Shown: positions 4,828 to 35,581 of the stretch, in pieces
How positions within the stretch are numbered: the stretch's first letter is position 1
Layout of the letters: the number at the start of each line of letters is the position of its first letter
Source of the DNA: Tepidanaerobacter sp. DTU063
Lineage (GTDB): Bacteria > Bacillota > Thermosediminibacteria > Thermosediminibacterales > Tepidanaerobacteraceae
NCBI GenBank assembly: GCA_001512695.1
Contig: LFSJ01000067.1
Coordinates: 44,640-101,517 of the forward strand
Length of the DNA: 56,878 nt
Direction of reading: 5' to 3'
Position numbers and translations under genes: made by a program
The notes under the pieces: generated by a model
Told to the model about the DNA's origin: nothing
Database searches by the model: none
The model's input: the letters and a program-made list of their open reading frames with translations, nothing else

Positions 4828-5223
4828 TTATGCTATTTTCTTCATGCCTCTTGTATTTTCGGCCGCCTTTTTTACCTCCTCGATGCTTTTCCCGAAACTC
4901 GCCTCCATGGCAGCGGCAATTGCTCCTTCAAAGAAGGGTGAATCCGCCATCATGGTAGCCGACCTGGCTGGCTCTTCCAGGCTTTCAATTGCCATTTCCG
5001 AACTCATCACCGCACTGCCCAGATCAGGGATAACTAACACCCCATCACCGTCAAATACCTCTAATACTTTTTGTCCGATCAATAAGGCATCGGTTCCAAG
5101 CCTATTGTCTGCCGTTCCGGCGGCCACTTCAATTTTTATTTTTTCTCCTATCATTTGAGTAATAATTTCCTTAGCACCTTCGGCCATCTTTTTGCTATGT
5201 GAGACTAAAACTATACCGACCAA
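4828..5223 (-). CDS. dhaM: PTS-dependent dihydroxyacetone kinase, phosphotransferase subunit DhaM
   Basis: DhaM is the phosphoryl donor of the PEP-dependent DHA kinase. It takes phosphate from HPr on an active-site His and passes it to the ADP held by DhaL. This copy is 131 residues, one EIIA-mannose-like domain as in Lactococcus. It lacks the fused HPr and EI-like domains of the E. coli protein. The N-terminus VGIVLVSHSKKMAEG has the active His at residue 9, and VLVIPDLGSAVMSSEMA is the second family motif. It is the last gene of dhaK-dhaL-dhaM and is followed by a strong terminator. Confidence 0.92.
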   Translation of the reverse strand: MVGIVLVSHSKKMAEGAKEIITQMIGEKIKIEVAAGTADNRLGTDALLIGQKVLEVFDGDGVLVIPDLGSAVMSSEMAIESLEEPARSATMMADSPFFEGAIAAAMEASFGKSIEEVKKAAENTRGMKKIA

Positions 5224-5249: not shown

Positions 5250-5894
5250 TCAGCTATCCTTGATGCCTTTGAGAATTGCCGTCAGCATGATGTGGCAGGA
5301 AGTGGCTCCCGGGTCTTGATGACCTATGCTTCTTTCACCTAAGTAGCTGGCTCTCCCTTTTTTGGCGATGATGCCCTTAGTATACTCTACGCCAGCTTCC
5401 GCTGCCTTCACAGCCTCTTCCATAAGATTTATATCTATGGTTGGAGAAGACTTTAATGCTTCAACTGCAGGTTCCAAGGCGTCTACTATAGTTTTTTCGC
5501 CTTTTACAGCCTTCCCCCGCATTTTTATGCCTTCCAAGGCTGCTTCAAGTGTCACCAACAGGTCTTCAAAACCCAGTTCCGTTTTAGAACCTATTGCCTG
5601 GCCTGCCCGCATAAAGGCAGTACCGTACAATGGTCCTGAAGCACCCCCTACCGTCGAAACCAGTGTCATGCCTACCGTTTTTAAAATACTGCCACAATCC
5701 TTGTCGCCCATTGCGGCAATCTTTTCGGTGACGGCTTTGAATCCTTTTGACATGTTTATACCATGGTCGGCATCGCCGATGGCTGAGTCAAGTTCTGTCA
5801 AAAAATCTTTGTTTGCATGTATATCATTTGCAATAAGGTTTAAGATTTCAATTAGTTTTGCACTGTTTACAGCCACATTTAAGTCCCCTTTCAA
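5250..5894 (-). CDS. dhaL: Dihydroxyacetone kinase subunit DhaL (ADP-binding)
   Basis: DhaL holds ADP as a permanent cofactor and transfers phosphate from DhaM to dihydroxyacetone on DhaK. The 214-residue product has DSAIGDADHGINMSKGF, with the Asp residues that bind the two Mg ions, then TVGGASGPLYGTAFMRAG around the phosphate loop. Near the C-terminus it has KKGRASYLGERSIGHQDPGA, also typical. The gap of 8 bp to dhaK and of 26 bp to dhaM indicates one transcript. Confidence 0.93.
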   Translation of the reverse strand: MKGDLNVAVNSAKLIEILNLIANDIHANKDFLTELDSAIGDADHGINMSKGFKAVTEKIAAMGDKDCGSILKTVGMTLVSTVGGASGPLYGTAFMRAGQAIGSKTELGFEDLLVTLEAALEGIKMRGKAVKGEKTIVDALEPAVEALKSSPTIDINLMEEAVKAAEAGVEYTKGIIAKKGRASYLGERSIGHQDPGATSCHIMLTAILKGIKDS

Positions 5895-5902
5895 CAGATG
5901 TA

Positions 5903-6901
5903 TCAGAGTTGTCTAAAAGCAGGTGTATCGGCCTGTGCATCTAATAGCTCTTTTAACTCGTCGTCTAATTTCAACAGGGTAATTGAAGCTCCCGCCATTT
6001 CAATAGAAGTCATGAATTCTCCTACAAAGGTCCTATAAACTTTTATTCCTTTTTCATTTAATATCTGGCTTACCCGGCGATTCATTATAAACTGTTCCAT
6101 CAAAGGTGTTGCGCCGAGGCCGTTGATCATAACAGCCACTTCATCTCCGGATTCGTAGGGAAGGTCATTCACTATCTTTTCCATCAAGTGATCTACCAGT
6201 TCATCAGCCTTCATGATATGTGTGCGCTTTGTGCCCGGCTCGCCGTGAATGCCCATTCCGATTTCCATTTCGTCTTCGCCAAGTGTAAAGGTGGGCTTGC
6301 CTGCTGCAGGCACTATGCATGGGGTGAGGGCCATTCCCATACTTCTTGTATTTGCAATGACTTTTTCAGCAACAGCCTTGACCTCTTCCAATGTCCCACC
6401 GGCTTCGGCCTTGGCTCCTGCAATTTTATGGACAAATACCGTTCCCGCAATTCCGCGCCTGCCAGTGGTATAAAGGCTGTCTTCCACCGCAACGTCATCG
6501 TTTACTACTACGCTGGCAACTTTTATTCCCTCAGCTTCTGCCATTTCTCCTGCCATTTCAAAGTTCATAATGTCACCGGTGTAGTTCTTGATGATCAGCA
6601 GGACACCCGCACCGCCGTCAACGGCTTTAATGGCTTCGAAAACCTGGTCTGGAGTAGGTGAGGTAAACACAGCGCCGGCTACTCCGGCATCTAGCATGCC
6701 CTTTCCTACAAAGCCTGCATGAGACGGTTCGTGGCCACTGCCACCGCCGGATACCAATGCAACCTTACCTTTTACTGGAGCATCAGCCCTTACCATAACT
6801 TCGAAACCTTCCAGTTTGCGAACGTACTGCGGATATGCTGCTGCCATACCCTCCAGCATTTCCTGTACTACTTCTTCAGGACTGTTAATAATCTTTTTCA
6901 T
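5903..6901 (-). CDS. dhaK: Dihydroxyacetone kinase subunit DhaK (DHA-binding)
   Basis: DhaK binds dihydroxyacetone as a hemiaminal on a His and presents it to DhaL for phosphorylation, giving DHA phosphate for glycolysis. The chosen start (ATG at 6901, after AGGAGGG) gives 332 residues, the normal length. The open frame continues upstream to 7000 but crosses the sigma-54 promoter. Motifs are VSGGGSGHEPSHAGFVGKGM with a conserved His, and MGIHGEPGTKRTH with the substrate-binding His. It is the first gene of the dha operon and lies behind a sigma-54 promoter at 6939-6956. Confidence 0.95.
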   Translation of the reverse strand: MKKIINSPEEVVQEMLEGMAAAYPQYVRKLEGFEVMVRADAPVKGKVALVSGGGSGHEPSHAGFVGKGMLDAGVAGAVFTSPTPDQVFEAIKAVDGGAGVLLIIKNYTGDIMNFEMAGEMAEAEGIKVASVVVNDDVAVEDSLYTTGRRGIAGTVFVHKIAGAKAEAGGTLEEVKAVAEKVIANTRSMGMALTPCIVPAAGKPTFTLGEDEMEIGMGIHGEPGTKRTHIMKADELVDHLMEKIVNDLPYESGDEVAVMINGLGATPLMEQFIMNRRVSQILNEKGIKVYRTFVGEFMTSIEMAGASITLLKLDDELKELLDAQADTPAFRQL

Positions 6902-6938: not shown

Positions 6939-6956
6939 AAGCAAAAATCGTGCCAA
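6939..6956 (-). promoter_or_regulatory. Sigma-54 (-24/-12) promoter of dhaKLM
   Basis: On the minus strand the sequence is TTGGCACG-ATTT-TTGCTT, a near-perfect fit to the sigma-54 consensus (TTGGCACG, four bases, TTGCW). It lies 37 bp upstream of the dhaK ATG, in the only sizeable gap of this part of the island. A sigma-54 activator gene lies two genes upstream. Confidence 0.85.
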
Positions 6957-7010: not shown

Positions 7011-7024
7011 GGTAATTTCTATCA
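7011..7024. promoter_or_regulatory. Possible activator half-site upstream of the dhaK promoter
   Basis: GGTAATTTCTATCA matches 11 of 14 positions of GGTAAAAAGTATCA, one arm of the 15-bp inverted repeat upstream of the glpP sigma-54 promoter. It lies about 55 bp upstream of the -24 element and overlaps the stop codon of the chemoreceptor gene. No clear second arm was found. It may be an enhancer site for the HPr-PAS-sigma-54 activator. Confidence 0.35.
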
Positions 7025-8758
7025 ACCAGCGTCTCTTAACACTTCTCGAATTATGTCATAATTCTCATCACTGGCAATGACAAAACCGTTTATCACAGAA
7101 CTTTTATGCTTATCCAAGAGGCCTATATCCTCATATTTCAAAAAAGCATTCTTGAGCTTTTCGCACAATTCCCTATCAAAGCCCGGCCGTGCCGCTATGC
7201 AATCCTTAGGTATCGGGTCGGTCTGGGCCAGATAAACAAGTTTGTCCACTTCAAGGCCGCGACTCTTCGCATCATCGATGGCTTCCGAGTAGGTAGCACC
7301 TACTCTAACCGATCCCGATATCACTGCTTGAACTACATTGCTGTGCGTTCCAAGAAAGAGCTGCTCTTTTAAATCCCTTTCGGGGTCTATGCCTGCCTTC
7401 TTTAGGATAAGCCTGGGATATGCATATCCCGAAGCAGATTTTGGGTCCACAAAGGCCATACGCTCTCCTCTGACATCTTTCAAATCGGTTATTCCCGATT
7501 CTCTATTGGTGATAATATATCCCAAGTAATCAGGAGCACCATTTACAATTGGAGTAACCAAGGGAATAACCGCTGCCTTGTTTTTCGCATTGACATAGGC
7601 TAAGGGCGAAAACCAACCCACATCTACAATCCCGTCTATCAAACTATTGGCAAGGGCATCGTAATCAGTGGCGACCAAGACTCTAGGTATGAGGCCAACT
7701 TTTTTACAAACGGTATTTATCACAGGAAGGTACAATGATTTTATAATTTCAGGGCTGAGGGCAGGATTTATTCCAAAAATTATCTCCTCTTTCTTCTTTA
7801 AACTGGTGGATTGCTTTTGCAATGAATATACTTTGTCAACTAAATTATCAGCAATATTGAGAAGCTGTTCGTTTTGTTTTTCCTGGTCTTTTATCAGGTA
7901 CGCCACTTCTATGGTGGAGTCGGCTGTAGATGCTGTTTTTTCTGAAAAAGATGCGAAAATATCTGCCAGATACTGTGTAGACTTCGCCTGATTTGCTGAA
8001 GAATCCAGCAGATTGCTGTTAAGCTCCGATATATCCTCAAAGGCGGCAACAGCGCCTTCCATCACATCTTTTCCCAATTGCATCTTGGATTTTAGATTTT
8101 TAAGGCTTACTGCCCCATCTTTAGAAATGCGACACGCTCTACTGATGCCATCGTCTATGAGTTCAGCAGTTTTGTGTATTTCTTGAGCTTTATCCTTACT
8201 CCTCTCGGCAAGTTTTCTGATTTCAGCAGCAACAACGCTGAATCCCCGTCCAGCTTCACCTGCTCTCGCAGCTTCAATTGCAGCGTTTAGTGCAAGGAGA
8301 TTTGTCTGCTGCGCAATGTGCTTTATAAAATCTACAAAGCCCTTTACTTGTTTTGTAAGTTCAAGTAAGGTCTCTACTTCGTCGGAGGACTTGTCAATTT
8401 CTGCAGTTACCTGTTCCAAGGCTGTCTCTACATCGCTTATTGCTAAGCTGCCTTCTTTTACTTTGCTTAAATAGTCCCTTGATATACTTGCTACAGAAGA
8501 TGCAGTTTCTCTTAAATTTTCTGCTAATCGAGACAGGTTGTTGAGCTGCTCCGAACCGCTAGCTGTATTTGCACTGATTTCTTGGGAATGAGATGATATC
8601 GTTTCTATTACCTTCACTAGATTTCTTATGGTTTCAGTGTTTTGTGCAACCACCCATTTTATCTCATGGGCATCATAGCCCAGCTCTTCGCTTAATCTCA
8701 GTATTTCGCTTTGAGAAGCGGGGGACACTTTGTCAATACTTTTCCCGGAATTTGCCAT
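7022..8758 (-). CDS. Soluble chemoreceptor-type protein fused to a PhnD-like binding domain
   Basis: This is a 578-residue two-part protein. Residues ~30-320 are a long helical methyl-accepting signalling region. Its kinase-control tip at ~145-185 ([20 protein letters not shown] then [16 protein letters not shown]) is fully conserved. Residues ~327-578 resemble the PhnD/SsuA periplasmic-binding fold: [41 protein letters not shown] and [17 protein letters not shown]. There is no signal peptide, membrane helix or HAMP domain, so it should be cytoplasmic. The binding domain sits on the C-terminal side of the receptor. It lies between the sigma-54 activator and dhaK, which suggests it senses a phosphorylated or small polar ligand of glycerol/DHA metabolism (inference). 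The partner kinase is not in the window. Confidence 0.8.
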
Positions 8759-8781: not shown

Positions 8782-10461
8782 TTATTTTACAAGACCGTAC
8801 TTTCTCGCTTTTGCAGCCACAGTTTTATGCGTTAAGCCCAGGGCTTTGCCAGCTGCGTTGAAACTTTTGTACTTTTTTAAAGCCGTTTTTATTATTGCTT
8901 TATCGTACTCGTCATAAGTAGCCAGTTCTCCATCTAAGTCTAAATTTATAAGGCTCGCTTTTTTTTCCATGGCTTTTCCGGTTACATGAGATGGCAAGTC
9001 CCAAATGTCAATTACGTCACTGTCGGATAGGTTTATCATCCGCTCTATAATATTCTCCAGTTCCCGAACATTGCCCGGCCAGTCGTAGTTGTACAAATAC
9101 CCCATAGCTCTTTTTGTAATTGTCTTTTCCTTTTTGCCAAGCTTTCTGCAGAGCTTTTCCAAAAAATGCTCCACAAGAAGCGGAATGTCGTCTTTTCTTT
9201 CCCTTAAACTCGGCAGCACGATCGGCACTACATTGAGACGGTAATAAAGGTCTTCTCGAAATTCGTCTCTCTCTACCATTTCTTTCAAATTTCTATTGGT
9301 TGCCGCAACAACTCTCACATCGGTTTTTAATACCTCGTTTCCGCCAACTCTTTCAAATTCTCGCTCTTGCAAGACTCTTAATAGTTTGGACTGCAGGTTT
9401 TTGTCTAATTCACCGATTTCATCCAAAAAAATTGTGCCTCCATTTGCAAGTTCAAACTTACCTATTTTTTGGAAAATTGCCCCGGTAAAAGCCCCCCTTT
9501 CATGTCCGAAAAGTTCGCTCTCCATCAGAGTTGCCGGTATGCCGGGGCAGTTTACCTTGATAAAAGGGCCATTGCGGCGGCTGCTGGCACGGTGTATGGC
9601 CTTAGCGACCAGTTCTTTACCTGTGCCACTTTCTCCCTGTATGAGGATTGTCGATGAGGTCTTGGCAGCCTTAAAAGCTATATCCAGCACCACCGCAAAC
9701 TTCTCACTGCGACCTATTATATCACTAAAGGCTTCGTTAAATTCCATTCTCTTCTTTTGTTCTATTAATAAATCTTTGGTCGGAGATATCTCTAAGGTAT
9801 ATTCCGGTGAAAAGCTTTCGGCAGTGGAGACGTCTTTGTTAAATACAATTGTATAGCCGGCTATTTCCCCATCTATAAATATTGGGTTTATGTCGGTAGA
9901 TGCCAGATTGCTCCTGGTGTTGTCATCCAAGCGAAATATTCCACTACCGATAGATGATGTGGTAGTCAAATCGATGCCTGGAATTATATCTTGTATGTTA
10001 TTGCAGCCTAAAATATGATTTTTGTCTATGCCCATTAATTCTTCGACAATTCGATTGCATAAAATTACGGCGCCTGTCTTATTGGTAACTATAATGCCCA
10101 GGCCTACGCTGTCAAAGATCTTGTCTGCTTTTATAGTGTTTTTCTCCAATATGTCATCAACCTGTTCTAATTCAATAGGGCTCTGAGGCAATAGATCGCG
10201 TCTAAAGAGTTCTTCAACACTTTCTATCGCCTCATCTACTTTTGGCCCTTTTGCTACTATTGTAATGCGTTCTCCGGGCTTAATGTTAAGGGAGTGAATA
10301 GCCATCAGAGCAGTAGCCGGCACTTCTCTTCCGGACTCGTTGCGTATATATATACTCGTTCCCATCGTGCTCTCAATCTCGTGTGCTTTATTGACCAACA
10401 TGGCAGCAGCTCTGATATGCATTCCTTTAGGATGGGTAAAGACGGCATCCTTTTGAAGCAT
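8782..10461 (-). CDS. Sigma-54-dependent activator with HPr, PAS, AAA+ and HTH domains
   Basis: This is an enhancer-binding transcription activator of 559 residues. Residues 1-88 are an HPr-like domain. The phospho-acceptor His falls exactly at position 15 (GMHIRAAAM) with Arg17 kept. The site matching regulatory Ser46 is Ala51, so HPr kinase should not act on it. Residues ~108-215 look like a PAS domain (SVGLGIIVTNKTGAVILCNR). The AAA+ domain has Walker A GESGTGKE at 276-283 and the sigma-54 loop GAFTGA at 323-328. The C-terminus is a Fis-type HTH (AGKALGLTHKTVAAKARKYG). It probably drives the two sigma-54 promoters in this island. Its HPr domain may read PTS phosphorylation state, possibly through DhaM (inference). 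Confidence 0.9.
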   Translation of the reverse strand: MLQKDAVFTHPKGMHIRAAAMLVNKAHEIESTMGTSIYIRNESGREVPATALMAIHSLNIKPGERITIVAKGPKVDEAIESVEELFRRDLLPQSPIELEQVDDILEKNTIKADKIFDSVGLGIIVTNKTGAVILCNRIVEELMGIDKNHILGCNNIQDIIPGIDLTTTSSIGSGIFRLDDNTRSNLASTDINPIFIDGEIAGYTIVFNKDVSTAESFSPEYTLEISPTKDLLIEQKKRMEFNEAFSDIIGRSEKFAVVLDIAFKAAKTSSTILIQGESGTGKELVAKAIHRASSRRNGPFIKVNCPGIPATLMESELFGHERGAFTGAIFQKIGKFELANGGTIFLDEIGELDKNLQSKLLRVLQEREFERVGGNEVLKTDVRVVAATNRNLKEMVERDEFREDLYYRLNVVPIVLPSLRERKDDIPLLVEHFLEKLCRKLGKKEKTITKRAMGYLYNYDWPGNVRELENIIERMINLSDSDVIDIWDLPSHVTGKAMEKKASLINLDLDGELATYDEYDKAIIKTALKKYKSFNAAGKALGLTHKTVAAKARKYGLVK

Positions 10462-10495: not shown

Positions 10496-10849
10496 TCATT
10501 CGACATTTCCTGTTGCTATTAAATCGATCCCCGTCCCCGCAATATTCTCAACTACAACATCTCCCACTTTAACGGGGGGCTCAACTATAATATCTTTCGT
10601 TTCAAGCATGGCTTTTTTCAGCAATTTTTTGGGGATTGGTTCTTTTGTCCTCACAGGTAGGACCCCACCGGTGGAAAGCTTTAAGGTGGTGGTAAGGGTT
10701 CTTCTTGGATCTAAAACTTCATTTTTTGCATAATCAATTCCACGTTTGCATTCGTAACCTTCTATGCTGACAATTTCGCCATTATTAAGCTTAACTTGAA
10801 TTTGACAACCTTTTGGGCATACTATACATGTTATCTTCTTAGTTTCCAT
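10496..10849 (-). CDS. DUF1667 protein, small Cys-rich partner of glycerol-3-phosphate oxidoreductase
   Basis: The 117-residue protein has an N-terminal CIVCPKGCQIQV motif and a further GYECKRGIDYA motif, typical of DUF1667. The four Cys probably bind an Fe-S cluster or metal. DUF1667 genes commonly follow a GlpA-like and an FAD/NAD oxidoreductase gene, as here. The three are thought to form a soluble glycerol-3-phosphate dehydrogenase complex. Its start overlaps the end of the previous gene by 11 bp, which suggests translational coupling. Confidence 0.8.
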   Translation of the reverse strand: METKKITCIVCPKGCQIQVKLNNGEIVSIEGYECKRGIDYAKNEVLDPRRTLTTTLKLSTGGVLPVRTKEPIPKKLLKKAMLETKDIIVEPPVKVGDVVVENIAGTGIDLIATGNVE

Positions 10850-12116
10850 CAGCTACACCTTCTTCCTGAAGGAAAAATCTTAGGCTCTTTAAATCTTTAT
10901 TGGCCAAGTCTTCTTTTTTCAGTTCAATGCTAATCATTTCGCTGGGCCTTACATGTTGAAGTACCCTTGTGCGAATCAAATTCTTATCTGATTCTATGAA
11001 AAGCCTGGCTTTTTCCATGGGTTTGGTGCTGCGCATGAAGAAATTCTGTTTTTCACCCAAAATCTTCTCAGGATCAACTAAGTGGGGTACTACGTAACTG
11101 ATTCCCGGGCCGGCAGACACTGAAATATACTCATCTGATGGTATTTTGTCTTTAAGGTAATCCACCGCTCCAAGGCCAGCAAGTCTCGATTCCATCGTCA
11201 CGAAATCCACCAAGTCATGGACATGAACTACATTACCACAGGCAAAAATCCCGGGGACGGACGTTTCCATCCTCTGATTTACAACGGGTCCACCGGTGAC
11301 ATCGTGAATTTTGATGCTCGCCATTTTAGATAGCTCATTTTCCGGAATCAGACCAACCGAGAGGAGCAGAGTATCGCAAGAATAATATTTCTCGGTTGAG
11401 GGAATTGGCTTTAAGTTTTCATCTACCTGGGCGATAGTTACTCCTTCTATCCTGCTATTGCCGTGAATGTAGACAACGGTGTGGCTCAGAAGAAGGGGTA
11501 TGCCGAAGTCTTCAAGACACTGGACAACATTGCGGGTAAGCCCATTAGAATAGGGCATGATTTCCGCAACGCACTTTACCTTTGCACCTTCAAGAGTAAA
11601 GCGTCGTGCCATGATCAAGCCTATATCACCGGAACCTAGAATGACTATTTCCTTGCCAGGCATGTATCCTTCAATATTTACAAACCTTTGGGCGGTGCCA
11701 GCAGTAAATATCCCTGCGGGTCTGAAACCGGGAATATTAATAGCTCCCCTGGTCCTTTCCCTGCATCCCATGGTGAGGATTATCGCATCTGCTTGAATCT
11801 GCATCAATCCCTTTTCGCGGTTGACTGCAGTGAGCTGTTTATTTTCGTTAAGGTCAATCACCATCGTATCAAGCAGAACTTCTATATTTAAATCTTCTAA
11901 TTCCTCAATAAATCTATGTGCATATTCAGGACCGGTAAGTTCTTCTTTAAAAATATGAAGGCCAAACCCATTGTGAATACATTGTGGCAGGATACCGCCT
12001 AAGCGTGAATCGCGCTCAATTAGTAAAACGTCTTCTACTCCGTTCTTTTTCGCTTCGATTGCCGCGGCAAGGCCGGCAGGACCACCGCCGATTACTACCA
12101 GTTCCTTATTTATCAT
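10839..12116 (-). CDS. NAD(P)/FAD-dependent oxidoreductase, second subunit of GlpA-like system
   Basis: This flavoprotein belongs to the pyridine-nucleotide-disulfide oxidoreductase fold. The N-terminal ELVVIGGGPAGLAAAIEAKK is the FAD Rossmann motif. The internal EIVILGSGDIGLIMARRF is the second nucleotide-binding motif. PGIFACGNVVHVHDLVDFV is the C-terminal FAD motif with GN in place of GD. Between the GlpA-like and DUF1667 genes it probably passes electrons from glycerol-3-phosphate oxidation to an unknown acceptor. The ATG at 12116 follows GGCGGTG and gives MINKELVV. The frame overlaps the GlpA-like gene by 11 bp. Confidence 0.83.
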   Translation of the reverse strand: MINKELVVIGGGPAGLAAAIEAKKNGVEDVLLIERDSRLGGILPQCIHNGFGLHIFKEELTGPEYAHRFIEELEDLNIEVLLDTMVIDLNENKQLTAVNREKGLMQIQADAIILTMGCRERTRGAINIPGFRPAGIFTAGTAQRFVNIEGYMPGKEIVILGSGDIGLIMARRFTLEGAKVKCVAEIMPYSNGLTRNVVQCLEDFGIPLLLSHTVVYIHGNSRIEGVTIAQVDENLKPIPSTEKYYSCDTLLLSVGLIPENELSKMASIKIHDVTGGPVVNQRMETSVPGIFACGNVVHVHDLVDFVTMESRLAGLGAVDYLKDKIPSDEYISVSAGPGISYVVPHLVDPEKILGEKQNFFMRSTKPMEKARLFIESDKNLIRTRVLQHVRPSEMISIELKKEDLANKDLKSLRFFLQEEGVADGN

Positions 12117-13578
12117 TGTCGTCACCGCCTTCGTTTTGTAGAAATTCTTTGATACGACCCATTAGTATATTAGAACCTGGTCCTTTTTTGGTTATATCAA
12201 TGGCATCCGCACCCAGTTCGCGCATTAAAATCTCCAGTACTCTTGGTGAGCAAAAACCACCCTGACATCTTCCCATGCCTGCACGAGTCCTCCTCTTCAC
12301 AGCATCTATGCTGCGTGCGCCAACTGGTCTCCTTATGGCATCGATAATTTCCCCTTCGGTAACAGTTTCACAGCGACAGATGACGCGGCCGTATGCGGGG
12401 TTTTCCTTGATGAGCTTGCTGCGCTCTTCGTTACTCATTTCTCTAAACCGTACCTTCTTCGGTCTGTGCGGTATAAAATCTGCTTTTTCCTTTAGGGTTA
12501 AGCCCTCTTCCTGCAAGATGTCCTTTACCATGAGAGCTATGGCCGGTGCAGATGTTAAGCCTGGTGATTGAATGCCGCCCACGTTGATAAAGCCCTTCAC
12601 CAGTTTAGAAGCCTCGATTATAAAATCATTGGTATTTGATACCGCTCTCAGGCCCGCAAACGAGGTTATTACATTTTTCAGAGGCAAATCCGGCACAAGT
12701 TTTTTTCCGCCCGCTATGATTTCTTCGATGCCCGGAACATTTACGCTGGTGTCATGTTTGTCTTCGATGTTATTTGAGTTAGGACCAATGAAAATATTGC
12801 CATCAACGGTGGGACATACCAGTATTCCCTTTGAAATCTTGGTTGGCGTTGGGAATATGGCCTTTTTTACCAAGTTCCCGAATTGCTTATCAAATATCAG
12901 GTATTCGCCCTTTCTTGGAGTTATTGAATACTCTTCTGCTCCAGCCATTTTTGATATTTCATCAGCGAATAGACCAGCAGCATTTATTACATATTTGGTC
13001 TGAATAGATCCTTTCGGGGTCTTCACTAAAAAGCTATTGTCTTCTAAAACCTCTATGTCCGTCACAGGTGCATTTAGCCAGAATTTAACACCGTTTTGAT
13101 TGGCATTTTCAGCAAGAGCTATAACAAGTTCATATGGACATACCAGCCCACCTGTTGGAGCATCGAGGGCTCCTCGAACATTTGGGCTCAGATTTGGTTC
13201 TAAATCAAGCAATTCATCTTTTCCGATGATGCGAAGCTTTTCTACTCCGTTAATTCGCCCTCGCTCTAACAACTCTTCAAGGGCTTGTTCTTCTTCATCG
13301 GTTACCGCGACTACTAGAGAACCGTTCATAACAAAGGGAACATCAAGTTCCTCACACAAGGCAGGAAAAAGCCTATTGCCTATAACATTCAATTTAGCTT
13401 TCCAAGTACCAGGGGCTGCATCAAAGCCCGCATGGACTATGGCGCTGTTTGCTTTGCTTGTACCGCACGCCACATCCTCTTCTTTTTCCACTACGGTAAT
13501 GCTCAAATCATACTTTGACAGTTCGCGAGCTATAGAGCAACCCGTTACGCCTGCTCCAATAATTACTATGTCTTCCAT
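12106..13578 (-). CDS. GlpA-like glycerol-3-phosphate dehydrogenase with C-terminal BFD [2Fe-2S] domain
   Basis: This is an FAD-dependent oxidoreductase of 490 residues of the DAO/GlpA type, predicted to oxidise glycerol 3-phosphate to DHA phosphate. The N-terminus DIVIIGAGVTGCSIARELSK is the FAD motif. HAGFDAAPGTWKAKLN and SFAGLRAVSN are family motifs near the active site. The C-terminal ~90 residues form a bacterioferritin-associated-ferredoxin-like domain with VICRCETVTEGEI and GMGRCQGGFCSPRV, so four Cys (CxC then CxxxxC) for a [2Fe-2S] cluster. It follows glpK after 115 bp, and a hairpin lies in that gap. Confidence 0.87.
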   Translation of the reverse strand: MEDIVIIGAGVTGCSIARELSKYDLSITVVEKEEDVACGTSKANSAIVHAGFDAAPGTWKAKLNVIGNRLFPALCEELDVPFVMNGSLVVAVTDEEEQALEELLERGRINGVEKLRIIGKDELLDLEPNLSPNVRGALDAPTGGLVCPYELVIALAENANQNGVKFWLNAPVTDIEVLEDNSFLVKTPKGSIQTKYVINAAGLFADEISKMAGAEEYSITPRKGEYLIFDKQFGNLVKKAIFPTPTKISKGILVCPTVDGNIFIGPNSNNIEDKHDTSVNVPGIEEIIAGGKKLVPDLPLKNVITSFAGLRAVSNTNDFIIEASKLVKGFINVGGIQSPGLTSAPAIALMVKDILQEEGLTLKEKADFIPHRPKKVRFREMSNEERSKLIKENPAYGRVICRCETVTEGEIIDAIRRPVGARSIDAVKRRTRAGMGRCQGGFCSPRVLEILMRELGADAIDITKKGPGSNILMGRIKEFLQNEGGDDNDK

Positions 13579-13693: not shown

Positions 13694-15214
<1,521 letters not shown>

Positions 15215-15341: not shown

Positions 15342-15680
15342 TCAAACATACAAGCAGTAGAGAATAAATCCGCCTAGAATTCCTCCAAGAATTGCATTAA
15401 TAACCGTCCCTAAACCTTTGCCTACATCGTCACCGGATAGGGCTGAAGCTACAAACAAGCCAATAAATGCTGCCCAGGCCATGTCAATCCAAGCTGCTCC
15501 GGATTGATAGATTAGACCTACTCCGTGGTTGAGTGTCCATGTGGTACCGACTATAAACCCGGCAGCGATCCAACCGCCAATAGGTCCTAAATGTTCAACA
15601 AGTTTTCCCCAGCATAGTCTTATGAGAAATGGGAATATAAAACCACCAGCTATAGTCGCTATAATCTTTGGAAATGTCAT
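15342..15680 (-). CDS. Small membrane protein, putative glycerol transporter subunit (Lin0368-like)
   Basis: This is a hydrophobic 112-residue protein with about three membrane segments (around IIATIAGGFIFPFLIRL, IGGWIAAGFIVGTTWTLNH and the C-terminal GGILGGFILYCLYV). It is a divergent relative of its upstream neighbour: both have GGW followed by a membrane segment with a conserved NH (WTLNHG here, WFMNHF there), then an (F/I)-D-M-A motif. As I recall, such pairs next to glycerol genes are annotated as Lin0368/Lin0367-type putative glycerol transporters. There is no glpF here, and the position between glpP and glpK fits glycerol uptake. Confidence 0.62.
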   Translation of the reverse strand: MTFPKIIATIAGGFIFPFLIRLCWGKLVEHLGPIGGWIAAGFIVGTTWTLNHGVGLIYQSGAAWIDMAWAAFIGLFVASALSGDDVGKGLGTVINAILGGILGGFILYCLYV

Positions 15681-15714: not shown

Positions 15715-16098
15715 CTACGCGGAAATGTCTTCTTTTGCTGAAACAGCGGCATCTCTTTCTGCCCACATTTTTTCAATGGCAACCGCTGTTACACCGGCAA
15801 GTACAGCACCAATAGCTACAAAAGCTAATGTAGGCAGTGAGTCGATTCCTGCTTGCGGACCATTGAGAAATACGTCCCTAAGAGTGCCCGTCACTGCAAT
15901 ACCGGCTGCCATGTCGACAAAGGCGCCTTCGTTAGCAACAAGTTCTAGGAAATGGTTCATAAACCACATTATTGAAATAATCGCAAGCCCGGCAAACCAG
16001 CCTCCAAAAATACCGTATGCCTCTGCAAAAGCCCCCCATACTGACATTACGAATATACCAGCAATAGCAAATCCAATAATAGAACCGATGTTTTTCAC
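15715..16098 (-). CDS. Small membrane protein, putative glycerol transporter subunit
   Basis: This 127-residue membrane protein has about three hydrophobic segments (GSIIGFAIAGIFVMSVWGAF, WFAGLAIISIMWFMNH, LAFVAIGAVLAGVTAVAI) and a charged C-terminal tail (EKMWAERDAAVSAKEDISA). It starts at GTG 16098 after GGAGGTG and is the first gene after glpP. Together with the next gene it looks like a two-subunit channel or carrier. The shared WFMNH/WTLNH and FVDMA/WIDMA motifs suggest an ancient duplication. Transport of glycerol is inferred from context, not shown. Confidence 0.6.
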   Translation of the reverse strand: MKNIGSIIGFAIAGIFVMSVWGAFAEAYGIFGGWFAGLAIISIMWFMNHFLELVANEGAFVDMAAGIAVTGTLRDVFLNGPQAGIDSLPTLAFVAIGAVLAGVTAVAIEKMWAERDAAVSAKEDISA

Positions 16099-16241: not shown

Positions 16242-16850
16242 TTATTTACCCAGGAAGGACTTTCTCCACATCTCCAAGTCCTCAAAAGGTATGTTCCATA
16301 TATTTTCATTTGACACCGAGATGGCTATGGCACCTTCTTGAAGTGCCGCCTTCACTTCACTTTCCTCTTCGATAAGGCCTCCGGCGATTATCGGGTAAGA
16401 AACCCTTTGGCAAATCCTTCTGATAACTTTCGGTATTACCGCCGGTAGGATTTCAATAGCATTGGGGGTTACATGCTTTACGGACTTAGTAGCGGTATCA
16501 ATGGCGAGACTGTCAAGTACGAATATTCTTTGGATGGTGAAAAGGCCTTCAGCTTTTGCGCAACTAACGAGATTTGATCTAGTTGTAAGAATTCCATCCG
16601 GCTTAATCTCTTGGGCTATATATTTCATGCCCATACCATTTTTGCTAATGCCTTCAAGTAAATCGACATGTAGGAAAACTCTTTTGCCTGCGCTTTTAGC
16701 TCGATTTACAACATCCTTAATATTCAGTATATTGCCGGTCAGAATAAATATGCATCGAGATTTCTTGGATAGAGCTAAGTCGATTCTCTCGATATCTCGT
16801 ATTGCCGGTATTACTGGTGACATGATCAAATCATTCAAAACATCATCCAA
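16242..16850 (-). CDS. glpP: Glycerol-3-phosphate-responsive antiterminator GlpP
   Basis: GlpP binds leader RNA of glycerol genes when glycerol 3-phosphate is present and prevents premature termination. The 202-residue product is collinear with the family: SPVIPAIRDIERIDLAL at the N-terminus, FLHVDLLEGI, ILTTRSNLVSCAKAEGLFTI, then PNAIEILPAVIPKVI and PIIAGGLIEEESEVKAAL, which form the TIM-barrel ligand site. It is the first gene of the glp transcript, behind a sigma-54 promoter. The island thus combines sigma-54 activation with possible antitermination. The start follows AGAGGTG. Confidence 0.92.
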   Translation of the reverse strand: MDDVLNDLIMSPVIPAIRDIERIDLALSKKSRCIFILTGNILNIKDVVNRAKSAGKRVFLHVDLLEGISKNGMGMKYIAQEIKPDGILTTRSNLVSCAKAEGLFTIQRIFVLDSLAIDTATKSVKHVTPNAIEILPAVIPKVIRRICQRVSYPIIAGGLIEEESEVKAALQEGAIAISVSNENIWNIPFEDLEMWRKSFLGK

Positions 16851-16925: not shown

Positions 16926-16943
16926 TTGCAAAATCTGTGCCAA
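16926..16943 (-). promoter_or_regulatory. Sigma-54 (-24/-12) promoter of the glp operon
   Basis: The minus strand reads TTGGCACA-GATT-TTGCAA, matching the sigma-54 consensus at all key positions (GG at -24, GC at -12, correct spacing). It lies 75 bp upstream of the glpP ATG, in the gap after plsY. Confidence 0.85.
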
Positions 16944-18830: not shown

Positions 18831-20759
18831 CTATAAATTCATCGCCTTTTTTAAGCTGGGGAATAGACTGGTATCCGTATGAGGCAGAAAACAGGCGCTA
18901 ATAAATTCTTCCATGTAAGCCGGGTCTGCGCTCAGTTCGATGTAAGTCATACTGTCGGCAATCTCCTTTACCTTTTCCCGAGCATCGTCACTTACAAGAC
19001 ATGCATATGCCCCGGTGAGGGAGCTGTTGCCGATAAACTCAAATTTTTCATGGGGTAAATCGGGCAACAGGCCGATAGTAATTGAATTGTTTATATCAAG
19101 GTTTTGCCCTATGCCTCCAGCGATGATGACCCTGTCAATATCGGAAACATCCATTCCTATGTTGTTCAGAAGGGTTTTTGCACCGGAATAGACGGCACCT
19201 TTGGCCCGGAGGAAATTGTCGATATCAATCTCATTTATTGTTATGTCTAGACCGTCCTTGGTTTCACTGCCGAAGGCTACTACGTATTCAAAACAGCCGA
19301 AATGCTGGTTGTACCTTATTCTGTCAGATTTTATGTTTTGATTTATTTTCCCCTTCATATCTATTATACCCTTTAAAAACATTTCGGCAATAAGGTCAAT
19401 TATTCCAGAGCCGCATATGCCTTTGGGTTTTGTGTCTCCGATGACCCTGACAACGGGTCTTAAATTTTGCCTATCAATTCTTACCTCATCAATGGCACCG
19501 CTGGCTGCCCTCATGCCGCAGCTGATTTCGCCGCCCTCAAAGGCCGGTCCTGCCGAACAAGCACAGGTCAACATCCATTCCTTATTTCCCAGCACTATTT
19601 CTCCGTTGGTGCCCAAATCTATAAAGAGCACGGTCTCGTCACCGTTCCACAGACCCGATGCCAAAACTCCCGCAACTATATCGCCGCCCACATAGCTTGC
19701 CACATTGGGGAGAATAAATACCGGGGCATTTTTGTTTATACCAAGTGAAATGTCGCCAGCCTTCAATGCAGGTGCGTTTCTAAATGCCGGTATATAAGGT
19801 TCCAGCCGGATATTTTCCGCATAAACCCTCAGCAGCAGATGGGCCATGGTTGTATTACCTGCAAAGACCGAGAAAACTATTTCGTCTTGTGTAATTTCAA
19901 GCTCTTTTATCATTTCCCTGAGCAGCTGATTTACGGTGCCTTCAACTATGGCATGGTTGAGTTTCTCCAGTCCATTTTCCTTCGTGGAATAGATAATGCG
20001 GTTAATTATGTCGCCACCGTACTGCATCTGAAGGTTACCGCTGTTGGCAGATGATTTTATTTCTCCGGTCTCAATATCCACCAAGCAGGCTGCCACAGTA
20101 GTTGTGCCTACATCAACACAAAGTCCATAAGAAGAGGTCTTGCTTTCGGCAGACACATTAATGACATCGTATCCGCCTCCATTTTTCAAAAGTGTCAGGG
20201 TTATTCCGTAATCGGAATCCCTTAACAGCACAGGCAGCTTTCTCAGTGCATCTATGGTCCAATTTACCATTGTACATCCCAAAACGCTTTTCAGCTCTCG
20301 CTGTACCCTTTCCAGGTCGGGGATATTGTCATCTATTGTAGGCTCGGGGAGCTTGACAGGGACAATCTTAAAACTAGTTCCAACTTTAATACCTGAATCC
20401 TTTAGAATATCAATAGCCCTGTTGACTAATTTTGTGCTTGCTCTAGACGTTATATTTTCCACCATTATGTCGTTGACAACATCCACTTCCATAAGCTTAA
20501 CGGTCATGTCTTCTTGGACCCAGGTAAGACAGGCAAGCCTCGTGCCTTGCTGGATTTCGTCTTCCGTGAGAATGGGAGTGTATTCATGCTTGTGTTGGCC
20601 CGATTTGACCGTTACCCGGCATTTGCCACAATGGCCTTTGCCTCCGCAAGGGGCGTCAAGAAATACACCGGCCTTTCGTGCCGCTTCCATTAAATTGGTG
20701 CCCTTGGCAACCTCAACAGCCTTACCTATGGGCAAAAAGGTAACTATACATTTATCCAT
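18831..20759 (-). CDS. acsV: Corrinoid activation protein (RACo/AcsV)
   Basis: This ATP-dependent reductive activator returns the inactive Co(II) form of the corrinoid iron-sulfur protein to Co(I). With the start at ATG 20759 the protein is about 642 residues. The N-terminal ferredoxin-like domain has DAPCGGKGHCGKCRVTV and a fourth Cys in TRLACLTW, ligands of a [2Fe-2S] cluster. A linker follows. The large C-terminal ASKHA-type ATPase (DUF4445) has YGLCVDVGTTTVAACLVDI, FSVFAGNTTMAHLLL, VLFIDLGTNGEIVLG and RVIIAGGIGQNLDI. It is the last WL gene, after gcvH. A 13-bp stem hairpin (20822-20852) lies between gcvH and acsV. Confidence 0.92.
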   Translation of the reverse strand: MDKCIVTFLPIGKAVEVAKGTNLMEAARKAGVFLDAPCGGKGHCGKCRVTVKSGQHKHEYTPILTEDEIQQGTRLACLTWVQEDMTVKLMEVDVVNDIMVENITSRASTKLVNRAIDILKDSGIKVGTSFKIVPVKLPEPTIDDNIPDLERVQRELKSVLGCTMVNWTIDALRKLPVLLRDSDYGITLTLLKNGGGYDVINVSAESKTSSYGLCVDVGTTTVAACLVDIETGEIKSSANSGNLQMQYGGDIINRIIYSTKENGLEKLNHAIVEGTVNQLLREMIKELEITQDEIVFSVFAGNTTMAHLLLRVYAENIRLEPYIPAFRNAPALKAGDISLGINKNAPVFILPNVASYVGGDIVAGVLASGLWNGDETVLFIDLGTNGEIVLGNKEWMLTCACSAGPAFEGGEISCGMRAASGAIDEVRIDRQNLRPVVRVIGDTKPKGICGSGIIDLIAEMFLKGIIDMKGKINQNIKSDRIRYNQHFGCFEYVVAFGSETKDGLDITINEIDIDNFLRAKGAVYSGAKTLLNNIGMDVSDIDRVIIAGGIGQNLDINNSITIGLLPDLPHEKFEFIGNSSLTGAYACLVSDDAREKVKEIADSMTYIELSADPAYMEEFISACFLPHTDTSLFPSLKKAMNL

Positions 20760-20821
20760 ATTGGTTATCACCCTATCTGTTTCTTCGAAATATACAATTT
20801 AAAGCTCCCATTTTATTAATA

Positions 20822-20852
20822 CTACAAGCCACTTGTTAAAAGTGGCTTGTAG
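20822..20852 (-). other. Intercistronic hairpin between gcvH and acsV
   Basis: CTACAAGCCACTT and AAGTGGCTTGTAG form a 13-bp perfect stem with a five-base loop. On the minus strand it is followed by TATTAATAAAATGGG, not a clean T-run. It may be a weak terminator or an mRNA-end stabiliser setting the gcvH/acsV ratio. Confidence 0.5.
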
Positions 20853-20858
20853 GGACTA

Positions 20859-21236
20859 TTATTCCAGGGTTTTTTCGTAGTCACTGCTAGAAAGGAGATT
20901 TGCCTCTTCAGCAGGATCGCTTACTTTCACCTTAATTATCCAACCGTCTTCATAAGGTGAACTGTTTACCAGCTCAGGCTCATCATCGAGTGCTTCATTT
21001 ACTTCGATAATCTCTCCGCTAATGGGTGCGTAAAGGTCTGAGGCAACTTTAGCCGATTCTATGCTGCCAAAGGGCTCACCCTGAGTGACTGTATCGCCAA
21101 CTTCAGGCAAATCCACAAACAAAACTTCGCCCAGCTGGTCTTGGGCATAGTCAGTTATTCCGACTGTAGCAACATCGCCTTCAACTTTCGCCCATGTATG
21201 CTCTTGATGATATTTCAAATCTCCTGGAAATTCCAT
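20859..21236 (-). CDS. gcvH: Glycine cleavage system H protein (lipoyl carrier)
   Basis: GcvH carries the aminomethyl group on a lipoyl-lysine during glycine cleavage or synthesis. The 125-residue protein has EHTWAKVEGDVATVGITDYA, then GSIESAKVASDLYAPISGEI, where Lys63 is the lipoylation site, and ELVNSSPYEDGWIIKVKV near the C-terminus. It follows acsB after 20 bp, so it belongs to the WL transcript. Neither gcvP nor gcvT is in the window, but lpdA lies in the same cluster. This points to a link between glycine and the WL methyl branch. Confidence 0.95.
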   Translation of the reverse strand: MEFPGDLKYHQEHTWAKVEGDVATVGITDYAQDQLGEVLFVDLPEVGDTVTQGEPFGSIESAKVASDLYAPISGEIIEVNEALDDEPELVNSSPYEDGWIIKVKVSDPAEEANLLSSSDYEKTLE

Positions 21237-21256
21237 ATGAAAACTCCTTCCCTTTT

Positions 21257-23380
21257 TTAGAACATTGGATCCATGGTTAGTGCAGGATGACCCACATTGG
21301 TCAAGAATTCCACAACTGTATCCGGGTCCGTTCCAACACTTTCATCTGCAATCATTTCATAGAAGTTTTCGATTCCTATTTCTTTGCCTCTCTCTATCAA
21401 TTTTTCTTTAAGAGCTTCTTTTAATTCTTTAGGCATCCAGACTACCCGCTGCAAGCCACCATCAGCATATAAGAACTTTTTGCTGGTGATAAATTGTCTT
21501 CCGTGGCCCATAAATCCAGGTGTCTGAACTCCGCCACCGGTGGTTGAAGCCAATTCGCCAAAGGTCATTCCGAGAGGTGTCATGCCATGGTATTCACGGT
21601 TGACGATAATTACGCCATTAGCTTCCGGCATGATTCCACAGATGCATTCGAAACAGCCGCAGGAAGTCATGGGATCTTCCATAATGGTATAAATGTTTAC
21701 CGATGTTGTAGCACCATTGGACTGTTCCGTTACTGCCTTGTCTACAGATGCCCAATGACCTTTTCTTTCATCAAGGCATTCGCCTTTAACTATGGGCTGA
21801 CAAGGTCCTGTGGGATCTAGTTCGTGTGTAGCTTTTGCGTCAAGCCAGCTTACAGCACCGCAAAGGCCCAAGCGCTCCGGTGTTACGATACACACGTGAG
21901 CGGGTGCAAAGGATTGACACAGCAGGCAGGAGTAGAAAGTATCCACACTTTCGTCTGTAAGGCCAGCAAGTCTTGCATCTCGTGCGTTGTACCTTGGGCG
22001 TGCGACTTCATTGAGCAATTCTTCTACCTTTTCTTTGTCAGTGATAATTGTGACTTGCACCTTATCAACGATGCTGCCAAACTCATCTAACATCTTGGCA
22101 TACATAACTTCACCGATATGTTTCAGCCTAAATCCTGCTTCATAGGAGGATTTGCTGATTCTCACCCAGGCGATATCTCTCTGGCCGATATGCATAACAC
22201 CTTCGATATAGTTCATGAAGTAGTGGATTCTGCGTTCCATTACCGGTTCAAAGTCTTCCTGCATGTTCTTACCCGCTACCTCAACTAGTACGGCCAGGGG
22301 CAGTTTGCCACCTTCGGGTCCAAGTGTATCTACGTCAGGACCGATGAGTTCAATCTTATGATCTTCTACTTCCGACATTTCACGCATTTTGACTAATTCC
22401 CATGCTGTTGTACGGCCGCCACCAAATTCTGCAAACATATCGTCCTTGCGCACCCTTTCACCTTCGAAAGCAGGTGCAAATCCCACGGGAATTGGAATCT
22501 CGGTAACTTTTATCTTAATGCCGCGAGCCTCAAGGGATGATTGAACCAATTTGTCATAATCCTTTTGAACGATCAGGTTCATGGGAACTTCCTGTACATC
22601 CTGGTCAGTAAGTACGGGGAAGCCCAAGGCAATAGCACCGGCTCCTGCTGACACCACAAGTTCGCTTAGGGGTCCCAATGCATTCACGAAGGCAGGAACC
22701 CTTTCCTTGGTGTATTTTAACAGCTCCGCTAAATCTCCGGGCGTTACATTTCCGAAAATAAGGGCTGCTCTTATTGCAAATGATACAATGTGGATTACCG
22801 AAGTCACGTCGTATCCCAGGGGAACTACTCTAAAGTCAAGGCCTATCTTAACACCTGCTTCGATGGCCTGGTCGATAACCTTGCCAACCAAGGTCACCAG
22901 GATACCCTTGGATTGATAATCCTTGATAATCTTTGCTGCCTCTTCTGCAGTAGGTGCTTCACCGATCACAACAGCTACACCGGGAATATCGCCGGTTACC
23001 AGGGGCACACCCATTGAACGGATCACAGTATCCGGGATAAAACCTACGCATGGGTCCTCATATGGGGTTTTTCCTCCCACGTATTTGCAGACCTCTATAA
23101 CTTCTGCTGCTACTGCTGTTGCAAGACCCGCGTTCAAGGCCTTTTCGAGATTTTGTTCCTTGACTATGAGGCTTTCAATTATTCCCAAAGCCCCTTTCAA
23201 CTCTGCCAAGGTCCCGATTTTCTGTCCGGTAGCTGCGTAGATAACGGGAAGGCTATAAGCCGTATTTGGGAAAACAACTTTTTCTTCTTCGCCGTATTCC
23301 TTGATAGTATCTTCCACCAAGGATTTAGCGGCAGCTAGGGCTTGCTCGGAACCCGTGAAAATAATGTCAAACAATGTCAT
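21257..23380 (-). CDS. acsB: Acetyl-CoA synthase (CODH/ACS beta subunit)
   Basis: The enzyme joins CO, a methyl group from the corrinoid protein and CoA to acetyl-CoA, or runs in reverse. The 707-residue protein is near the usual ~730. The A-cluster ligands are visible: CLLCQSFAPAHVC, then GLCGAVSWLDAK, and SCGCFECICG, which holds the CxC that binds the proximal and distal nickel. N-terminal domain motifs such as YEDPCVGFIPDTVIRSMGVP are also typical. It is transcribed after acsE and before gcvH. Confidence 0.96.
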   Translation of the reverse strand: MTLFDIIFTGSEQALAAAKSLVEDTIKEYGEEEKVVFPNTAYSLPVIYAATGQKIGTLAELKGALGIIESLIVKEQNLEKALNAGLATAVAAEVIEVCKYVGGKTPYEDPCVGFIPDTVIRSMGVPLVTGDIPGVAVVIGEAPTAEEAAKIIKDYQSKGILVTLVGKVIDQAIEAGVKIGLDFRVVPLGYDVTSVIHIVSFAIRAALIFGNVTPGDLAELLKYTKERVPAFVNALGPLSELVVSAGAGAIALGFPVLTDQDVQEVPMNLIVQKDYDKLVQSSLEARGIKIKVTEIPIPVGFAPAFEGERVRKDDMFAEFGGGRTTAWELVKMREMSEVEDHKIELIGPDVDTLGPEGGKLPLAVLVEVAGKNMQEDFEPVMERRIHYFMNYIEGVMHIGQRDIAWVRISKSSYEAGFRLKHIGEVMYAKMLDEFGSIVDKVQVTIITDKEKVEELLNEVARPRYNARDARLAGLTDESVDTFYSCLLCQSFAPAHVCIVTPERLGLCGAVSWLDAKATHELDPTGPCQPIVKGECLDERKGHWASVDKAVTEQSNGATTSVNIYTIMEDPMTSCGCFECICGIMPEANGVIIVNREYHGMTPLGMTFGELASTTGGGVQTPGFMGHGRQFITSKKFLYADGGLQRVVWMPKELKEALKEKLIERGKEIGIENFYEMIADESVGTDPDTVVEFLTNVGHPALTMDPMF

Positions 23381-23422
23381 ACATATCCCTCCAAGGACAT
23401 TTATTTTTAGCTTTCAAGCTAA

Positions 23423-24208
23423 TTACAATTCAAGGTACGAATCGGCATATAAGTATCTTTCTTTTATCAAATCGGCTGTCTTTATTACATCCATTACTAG
23501 CTTATCTAATGGATTGATTATAGCAGAAGTTAGACCACACTGGATGGCCATGGCACAGAAAGTGGCTTCAATCAAACCTCTAATTTCTTTGGGGCAACCG
23601 TTGGAAACATTGCTGAGGCCACCAGTGGTTTTAAGACCCATTTCCGAAATCTGCCTGACAGCTTCCAGCACTTCTTGCTGTTTGTCCTGCATACCCTTAA
23701 CTACGACAAAGAGGGGGTCAAAGAGAATATTTTCCTGATCAAGACCTGCTTCCATGGCCCGCTCTAAAATTTCAGTGCAGTACATGATTCTCTCGTCATT
23801 ATCTCTAGGTATGCCCTCTTTGGCGCAAAGGCCGATGACTATGGCATCGTATTCAGCGGCTAAATTTACCATGTCCAGCCTCGGACCTGCATCGGCAGAG
23901 TTGATTATGGGTTTGCCTGCTGTGCGATCGTAAACTTTGATCCCGGCTTCCAGGGCTTTCATGTTGGCAGTATCAAGGCACAGGGGTGTTTCCGGAAACT
24001 CATCCTGCAAAATCTTCACTACCCAGGGCATGAGTTCTTCTCCGTCCCTGTCTGCTGGCCCGATGTTTACATCCAGGTAGTTGGCACCTGCGTCAATCTG
24101 TTCCTTGGCCCGCTTTAAAATGGGCTCCGGATTTCTCTCCTCAAGGGCTTTTCTGATAGTTGGTGAAATAACGTGAATTCTCTCACCGATAGTTAAAAAT
24201 CTTGCCAT
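23423..24208 (-). CDS. acsE: Methyltetrahydrofolate:corrinoid/iron-sulfur protein methyltransferase
   Basis: AcsE moves the methyl group from methyl-tetrahydrofolate to the cobalt of the AcsCD corrinoid protein. The start chosen (ATG 24208, after TTAGGAGGAAGG) gives 261 residues, the normal size. An open frame extends upstream but lacks a ribosome binding site. The TIM-barrel pterin-binding motifs are FLTIGERIHVISPTI, ANYLDVNIGPADRDGEE, PLCLDTANMKALEAGI and GGLSNVSNGCPKE with the conserved Asn. Confidence 0.95.
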   Translation of the reverse strand: MARFLTIGERIHVISPTIRKALEERNPEPILKRAKEQIDAGANYLDVNIGPADRDGEELMPWVVKILQDEFPETPLCLDTANMKALEAGIKVYDRTAGKPIINSADAGPRLDMVNLAAEYDAIVIGLCAKEGIPRDNDERIMYCTEILERAMEAGLDQENILFDPLFVVVKGMQDKQQEVLEAVRQISEMGLKTTGGLSNVSNGCPKEIRGLIEATFCAMAIQCGLTSAIINPLDKLVMDVIKTADLIKERYLYADSYLEL

Positions 24209-24372
24209 TTGCCTTCCTCCTAAATTGTTCTGTTTTTCCCGACCCGGTAAAGATAAGGGCACCATTCCCAATGCAAGACCTTGGCTCTCGTACACAACAA
24301 GGTACTTGCTTGAAAGAAATTCCTGCCCATATCTTCACCGGACAATCTTTCCACACAACGTAAAGGTACTAT
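24209..24372 (-). pseudogene. Frameshifted coding remnant between acsC and acsE
   Basis: The 164-bp gap reads as protein in two frames. Directly after the acsC stop, in the same frame, it gives IVPLRCVERLSGEDMG. One base out of phase it continues QEFLSSKYLVVYESQGLALG and then MVPLSLPGREKQNN up to the acsE start. Joined by a one-base shift near 24324 these make a ~45-residue small domain-like sequence. It has no start codon or ribosome binding site. It may be a decayed small gene or lost C-terminal extension. I do not recognise the family. Confidence 0.35.
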
Positions 24373-25731: not shown

Positions 25732-25749
25732 AATTCATCTCTCCTTTAC

Positions 25750-26688: not shown

Positions 26689-26723
26689 AGTATCTCCTCC
26701 AATTATTTATTGACATATGGGCT

Positions 26724-27503: not shown

Positions 27504-27515
27504 ACTATCATCTCC

Positions 27516-28898: not shown

Positions 28899-28916
28899 CA
28901 CCAAGCCTCCTGTCAT

Positions 28917-29789: not shown

Positions 29790-29801
29790 CCGACCTTCCT
29801 C

Positions 29802-30449: not shown

Positions 30450-30461
30450 AAAATTTTCCTC

Positions 30462-31316: not shown

Positions 31317-31329
31317 TTGCCAAACCCCC

Positions 31330-32777: not shown

Positions 32778-32914
32778 GGGAAGACCACCTTTAAGTCTGT
32801 TTTGATTTGCCGAATAAAGATCAATTTGAACATTTTTACCGATAGTGATTGTTAGGTCTTTCTCATAATTATATACATGTCTAGACAATCTATAATATAA
32901 TAATATCTGTTTTT

Positions 32915-32954
32915 GGTCGTCATGTAAACCCATGAGCGGAATTACATGACGACC
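32915..32954 (-). other. Stable stem-loop between fhs and the DUF166 gene
   Basis: GGTCGTCATGTAA (32915-32927) and TTACATGACGACC (32942-32954) form a perfect 13-bp stem with a 14-base loop, 20 bp after the fhs stop. In the minus direction it is followed by AAAAACAG, so it is not an intrinsic terminator. It probably stabilises or marks processing of the fhs mRNA, or acts as an attenuation element. Confidence 0.55.
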
Positions 32955-32974
32955 TTTTGTTGGAACTTTAATTT

Positions 32975-35550: not shown

Positions 35551-35581
35551 GGGCAACACATCCTTAATATCCTGGGGCTTG

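Follow-up and report, generated by a model that had tools for sequence, protein, structure and literature searches.

A chemoreceptor joined to a C-terminal PhnD-like binding domain recurs in bacterial glycerol operons and may report an intracellular pathway intermediate

The locus studied here raises the question what a chemotaxis-type receptor does inside an operon for glycerol breakdown, and what the binding domain at the end of its polypeptide might report to the cell. The gene lies in a 56,878-nucleotide stretch of contig LFSJ01000067.1 from Tepidanaerobacter sp. DTU063 (the window; Table 1), which belongs to a draft genome of 2.34 Mb with an estimated completeness of 82.8%. On the reverse strand, plsY, glpP, two DUF6905 genes, glpK, a glpO-like gene, genes for an FAD/NAD oxidoreductase, a DUF1667 protein and an activator, the fusion gene, dhaK, dhaL and dhaM follow each other in this order. 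Our preferred reading, to which we assign a probability of roughly 0.6, is that the fusion works as a chemoreceptor in the cytosol, informs CheA/CheW of a phosphorylated intermediate of the glycerol pathway and thereby biases swimming by glycerol flux.

Table 1. Features of the fusion gene and its neighbourhood, numbered from the first nucleotide of the window.
Feature	Position	Strand	Basis or remark
MCP-PhnD fusion receptor	7022..8758	-	578 aa ORF and domain search
MCPsignal PF00015, residues 118-270	7949..8407	-	Pfam, E 3.2e-33
Receptor tip hairpin, residues 143-187	8198..8332	-	33 fusions compared, mean pairwise identity 0.68
Four-residue linker, residues 321-324	7787..7798	-	AlphaFold2; end of C-terminal MCP helix to first binding-domain strand
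PhnD-like binding domain, residues 324-575	7034..7789	-	Pfam, fold, head-group and tail residues
HPr-PAS-sigma54 AAA+-HTH activator	8782..10461	-	Domain search; upstream of fusion, 23 bp gap
dhaK	5903..6898	-	PF02733
dhaL	5250..5894	-	PF02734
dhaM (EIIA-man)	4828..5223	-	PF03610
DUF1667 protein, glycerol-3-phosphate oxidation set	10496..10849	-	Identified through relative L049:5858-6211
FAD/NAD oxidoreductase, glp set	10839..12125	-	Domain search
GlpO/GlpA-like glycerol-3-phosphate dehydrogenase/oxidase	12106..13578	-	Domain search
glpK-type FGGY kinase	13694..15187	-	FGGY_N and FGGY_C
GlpP, glycerol-3-phosphate responsive antiterminator	16242..16850	-	PF04309, E 2.9e-65
Sigma-54 -24/-12 type promoter TGGCACGATTTTTGCT	6940..6955	-	Exact match, 57 bp upstream of dhaK
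Second sigma-54 type promoter TGGCACAGATTTTGCA	16927..16942	-	Exact match, ahead of glpP

The fusion is encoded by a single intact open reading frame with a complete coding sequence, and its ATG start is preceded by a purine-rich ribosome-binding stretch. The open frame comprises 583 codons in total; an overlooked N-terminal domain, a membrane helix or a wrong start can be dismissed, because only the five extra codons upstream of the start are open and no hydrophobic stretch exists. An assembly or frame artefact was likewise rejected, since full-length intact fusion relatives are present in many genomes, and orthologues of 53-81% identity have an unbroken gene. The Pfam family Phosphonate-bd (PF12974) matched residues 328-567 over its entire profile (E 1.7e-63), and the fusion scores over the cut-off of NCBIfam TIGR01098; with the PhnD equivalog TIGR03431 it reached 142 bits versus a cut-off of 261 and is not assigned to that group. 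Hydrophobicity analysis (19-residue Kyte-Doolittle windows, with a best mean of 1.25 for the whole protein and of 0.50 for its N-terminal part) revealed neither a membrane helix nor a signal peptide, and no HAMP match was obtained in the domain search. The initial annotation, which had been made from the bare sequence, is confirmed on these points: it had described an intact receptor tip with a PhnD-like domain behind it, now borne out by the PF00015 match, the full-profile PF12974 match and the fold, and had noted that signal peptide, membrane helix and HAMP are missing. Its reservation that the C-terminal part might resemble no PhnD-like profile is dispelled by the PF12974 E-value. The fusion of an MCP hairpin with a PhnD-family domain is real and far beyond chance.

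The AlphaFold2 model of the full-length protein contains helix from residue 13 to 320; strand one of the binding domain starts at residue 325. When the C-terminal domain was modelled alone, a mean pLDDT of 89.8 was obtained, and Foldseek placed this domain structurally nearest to PtxB, ArrX, HtxB, GpxB and PhnD. The full-length model aligned with the cytoplasmic domain of a T. maritima receptor (2ch7) over 308 columns with a target TM-score of 0.83, and the alignment to this receptor extends with equal spacing over 263 residues (37-299 to 25-287). The intact tip is flanked by arms of about equal length, hence the binding domain is placed at the tip-distal end. According to the model it occupies the end at which membrane receptors carry their membrane segment and sensor, but it is joined to the C-terminal arm. 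One or two membrane helices near the N-terminus are present in several of the more distant fusions. In these proteins, too, the MCP module precedes the binding domain, which must therefore lie inside the cell for the tip to contact CheA.

The full fusion was detected in 16 of the 299 sampled genomes of the phylum by a profile search with the C-terminal part. All fusions scored at least 309 bits and ordinary binding proteins at most 171 bits with this survey profile, which was seeded mainly from relatives of the window protein; judged by their sequences, the fusions are a distinct family clearly apart from ordinary binding proteins. Nine of the 16 survey fusions are located in glycerol operons, which is the less biased figure. 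Including targeted searches, 24 of 33 fusions are so located, in several layouts, six taxonomic families and two tree branches, a proportion that was raised by the choice of lineages searched (16 fusions from the survey, 10 from targeted searches around three linked lineages and seven from the family of the window organism). G014, in which only GlpP is adjacent, was counted as unlinked. If a 1-4% chance for a random gene to lie near glpK is taken as an assumption and not as a measured value, the probability of finding five or more linked families among 13 is 1e-4 or less. The proposal of an internal sensor tied to glycerol genes is upheld insofar as the linkage is real and recurs in differing operon layouts; the concern that the fusion might be common outside such surroundings applies in part, as 7 of the 16 phylum-survey fusions have no clear glycerol neighbours.

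Families f1 and f3 share the order glpK-glpO-FAD oxidoreductase-DUF1667-activator-fusion-dhaKLM in 12 of 12 fusions, with an identical operon in 12 genomes. The same order without the activator is found for four of the five f67 fusions, and some of these glycerol operons contain an extra DJ-1/PfpI or GlpP gene. DJ-1/PfpI proteins are encoded next to the fusion in several glycerol operons (L119:6238-6759, L128:9168-9689), possibly to deal with methylglyoxal arising from dihydroxyacetone phosphate (DHAP). In family f54 the fusion terminates the order GlpP-GlpF-GlpK-GlpA-GlpB-GlpC-pyk-gap-pgk-tpi-(gpm)-eno-fusion (5/5, the upstream part being fully read only in G112), whereas GlpP-fusion-GlpF-GlpK-GlpA-GlpB-GlpC is found in f77 (both fusions) and GlpF-GlpK-GlpA-GlpB-GlpC-fusion in f8 (one genome). 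In the phylogenetic tree 21 fusions, including all those of f1, f3, f54, f77 and f8, form a single clade (100/100), of which 20 are glycerol-linked, and the linked f67 clade is separate from it. Three changes between the linked and unlinked state were counted on the tree compared with 8.1 in shuffles, a value that serves only as a guide because near-copies favour such clustering. With somewhat less than even odds, the fusions would be a family of cytosolic chemoreceptors in which a C-terminal binding protein of periplasmic type senses glycerol-3-phosphate (G3P) or DHAP, a family taken into glycerol operons by two separate branches and giving rise to taxis driven by intracellular glycerol flux.

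The residues of the binding pocket restrict the possible ligands. Phosphite is contacted in Te_PtxB by Y55, Y100, S130, T131, S132 and H160 (PMC5700983), and each of the 33 fusions carries the corresponding head-group residues Y366, Y411, S441, S443 and H472 without exception. The tail pair E492/D519, in which E492 is replaced by D in one fusion, aligns with E177/D205 of E. coli PhnD, the residues holding the amine of 2-aminoethylphosphonate (numbering and contacts from PMC12718374). GpxB, a PhnD-family protein that binds G1P and G3P at 1-2.5 uM, has R223/T247 at these places (PMC12718374). With the GpxB-PhnD equivalence taken from that paper and not from a direct GpxB alignment, this pair is absent from the fusion, which has E492/D519 instead. 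A GpxB-type glycerol-phosphate pocket is thus not supported, and the ligand cannot be deduced from the pocket. A phosphite sensor is also disfavoured, because the capping tyrosine Y208 of PtxB is absent and D519 stands at its place. Unlike in 16 stand-alone relatives, where they vary, the E/D pair and a WFSP motif are fixed in the fusions. The linked clade A further shows lobe-1 and loop residues peculiar to it (A333, L/M334, S335 and C520). The conserved head-group site gives good support for a phosphorylated ligand. DHAP and G3P are reasonable candidates given this intact phospho-head-group pocket, and they appear most likely, because they are common to all linked operon layouts; free dihydroxyacetone is less likely, since dhaKLM were not seen in the neighbourhoods of f54, f77 and f8. 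Of the earlier suggestion of dihydroxyacetone phosphate or glycerol phosphate, the fit to the phospho-site persists, while the R/T pair of GpxB does not come to its aid.

It is also conceivable, although we consider it unlikely, that the fusion is a general cytosolic sensor of phospho-compounds and that its glycerol linkage merely reflects shared regulation; inorganic phosphate, PEP, another triose phosphate, phosphoethanolamine or 2-aminoethylphosphonate would then come into play. The head-group site and the E/D pair are indeed fixed in glycerol-linked and unlinked fusions alike, this pair is that of the 2-aminoethylphosphonate-binding PhnD (PMC12718374), and lower glycolysis genes also occur in the f54 and f8 operons. 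However, glycerol genes have become neighbours of the fusion in two separate clades and in several operon layouts, and the residues specific to clade A suggest a tuned ligand.

The output of the receptor can be approached from its tip, which is the part contacting CheA/CheW in known receptors. Over the 33 fusions the tip is the best-conserved part (mean pairwise identity 0.68, compared with 0.54 for the binding domain) and both arms drift (0.29). The genome itself encodes CheW and a CheA complete in its five domains (contigs C107 and C67) as well as CheC. Among its several other receptors, one can be aligned to the fusion over 290 residues without any gap, and the unlinked fusion L121 adjoins cheA-cheW-cheC-cheY and flagellar genes. 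The initial annotation had also considered direct signalling to the adjacent activator, i.e. that the fusion bypasses CheA and controls the HPr-PAS-sigma54 protein by direct contact. Such a contact would agree with the close spacing of the two genes in the window and with their adjacency in 12 of 12 f1/f3 genomes, but it has hardly any probability in view of the fusion operons of four other families (f67, f54, f77 and f8), which lack a neighbouring activator, of the conserved CheA/CheW-type tip, and of G015, G018 and G270, where the activator is found in the same glp-dha operon without an adjacent fusion and the sigma-54 sites persist. G015 and G018 gave no fusion match at all in the C-terminal profile search. 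Since fusion and activator each occur without the other, direct signalling between them is unlikely. As far as can be judged from sequences and gene order, CheA/CheW are favoured over the activator as partner by the tip conservation, this mutual independence and the position of L121 beside che genes. An improbable variant is that the MCP half serves as dimerisation scaffold of a non-chemotactic regulator outside the chemosensory array. It would be in line with the weak methylation sites (the strict consensus is absent from the window protein, which has relaxed matches at residues 56 and 112) and with the fusion carrier G069, in which no CheA dimerisation domain was detected; against it stand the tip conservation and the presence of CheA in 15 of 16 fusion genomes. 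G069 as a fusion genome devoid of CheA is not decisive, because CheW-type domains and six chemoreceptor loci are kept there. One CheW fragment stands alone in a 79-codon frame of this genome, hence CheA is possibly broken, perhaps split by a contig end. Apart from the fusion, the chemoreceptors L004 (C30) and L008 (C92) of the window organism extend some 120 residues beyond the MCP hairpin, with 285-291 residues following the tip; these extensions may be further C-terminal sensors.

In the preferred reading as a reporter of glycerol flux, the fusion would be a wholly cytosolic chemoreceptor. Its PhnD-like domain would take up a small, phosphorylated intracellular compound of the glycerol pathway, with G3P or DHAP as the most likely ligand. 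Closure of the two lobes would be transmitted through the four-residue linker to the C-terminal coiled-coil arm of the receptor, and the conserved tip would pass the signal via CheW to CheA, so that swimming becomes biased by the glycerol catabolic flux in the sense of a metabolism-dependent taxis. The fusion probably shares a transcript with the glycerol genes, hence the receptor would be made during glycerol use. Starting from the observed architecture, the conserved tip and pocket, the recurrent glycerol linkage, the CheA and CheW of the genome and the independence from the activator, we infer the ligand identity, the sign of the response, the CheA/CheW contact and the co-transcription. Such a mechanism suggests that these bacteria steer by a glycerol-breakdown product inside the cell and not by the glycerol outside.

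Cytosolic chemoreceptors are common and mostly without known ligand. Receptors that carry a binding-protein fold outside the membrane are known as well. A PhnD-like domain also acts as sensor of a signalling protein in the TtrS sensor kinases, where it lies outside the cytoplasm and forms the N-terminal part of a histidine kinase protein; the fusion gave a weak match to this group (NCBIfam NF040750). The closest parallel in domain order is TlpD of Helicobacter pylori, which has no membrane helix, an MCP hairpin first and a C-terminal sensor, and which signals to CheA/CheW (PMC6715182, PMC13001251). However, TlpD carries a CZB zinc domain, senses HOCl and is not linked to a glycerol operon, whereas the fusion has a two-lobed PhnD-like domain. 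The fold and the phospho-headgroup residues are shared with PtxB, PhnD, HtxB and GpxB of the PhnT family, among which GpxB binds glycerol phosphates. These proteins are secreted and feed ABC transporters, in contrast to the cytosolic domain covalently joined to a receptor, and the tail contacts of the fusion differ from those of PtxB and GpxB. As proposed for the fusion, the cytosolic receptor MtpA of Methylobacterium follows the product of a substrate oxidation in metabolism-linked formaldehyde taxis; unlike in the fusion, no domain other than MCP was detected in this receptor (PMC10613068). C-terminal sensors on cytosolic receptors, binding-protein folds in receptors and metabolism-linked taxis via a cytosolic receptor are known separately, and their combination was not found in open-access papers; this literature yielded no description of a chemoreceptor-PhnD fusion with glycerol linkage and nothing relevant on dihydroxyacetone chemotaxis. 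The architecture may well be listed already in domain databases. If true, the proposed function would show clearly how a binding-protein fold was transferred into the cytosol and attached to the tail of a receptor, and it would provide a route for anaerobes to steer by an intracellular metabolite level. Solved ligand complexes of binding-domain relatives and an operon that names the pathway make ligand and output directly testable.

Finally, the surroundings of the fusion deserve some remarks. The promoter before glpP is likely the start of the fusion-bearing operon, and one or both sigma-54 sites occur at matching places in several relatives, some of which have no clear dhaK site. Both promoters are likely targets of the HPr-PAS-AAA+ activator; given their positions ahead of glpP and dhaK, it probably drives the operon and dhaKLM. 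The HPr-like domain at the N-terminus of the activator, encoded near the dhaM-type EIIA, suggests a PTS-type phosphorylation control of glycerol genes. Between glpP and glpK, two small hydrophobic DUF6905 proteins are encoded in tandem (15342-15680 and 15715-16098, reverse strand) at the place of GlpF (MIP) in relatives; none of the operons read had both, and the pair may represent unrecognised glycerol uptake proteins. Directly beside the glycerol operon (18831-37483, reverse strand), open reading frames resembling a Wood-Ljungdahl cluster were recognised by eye from the translations only, among them CO dehydrogenase/acetyl-CoA synthase, formate-THF ligase and a RACo-like protein.
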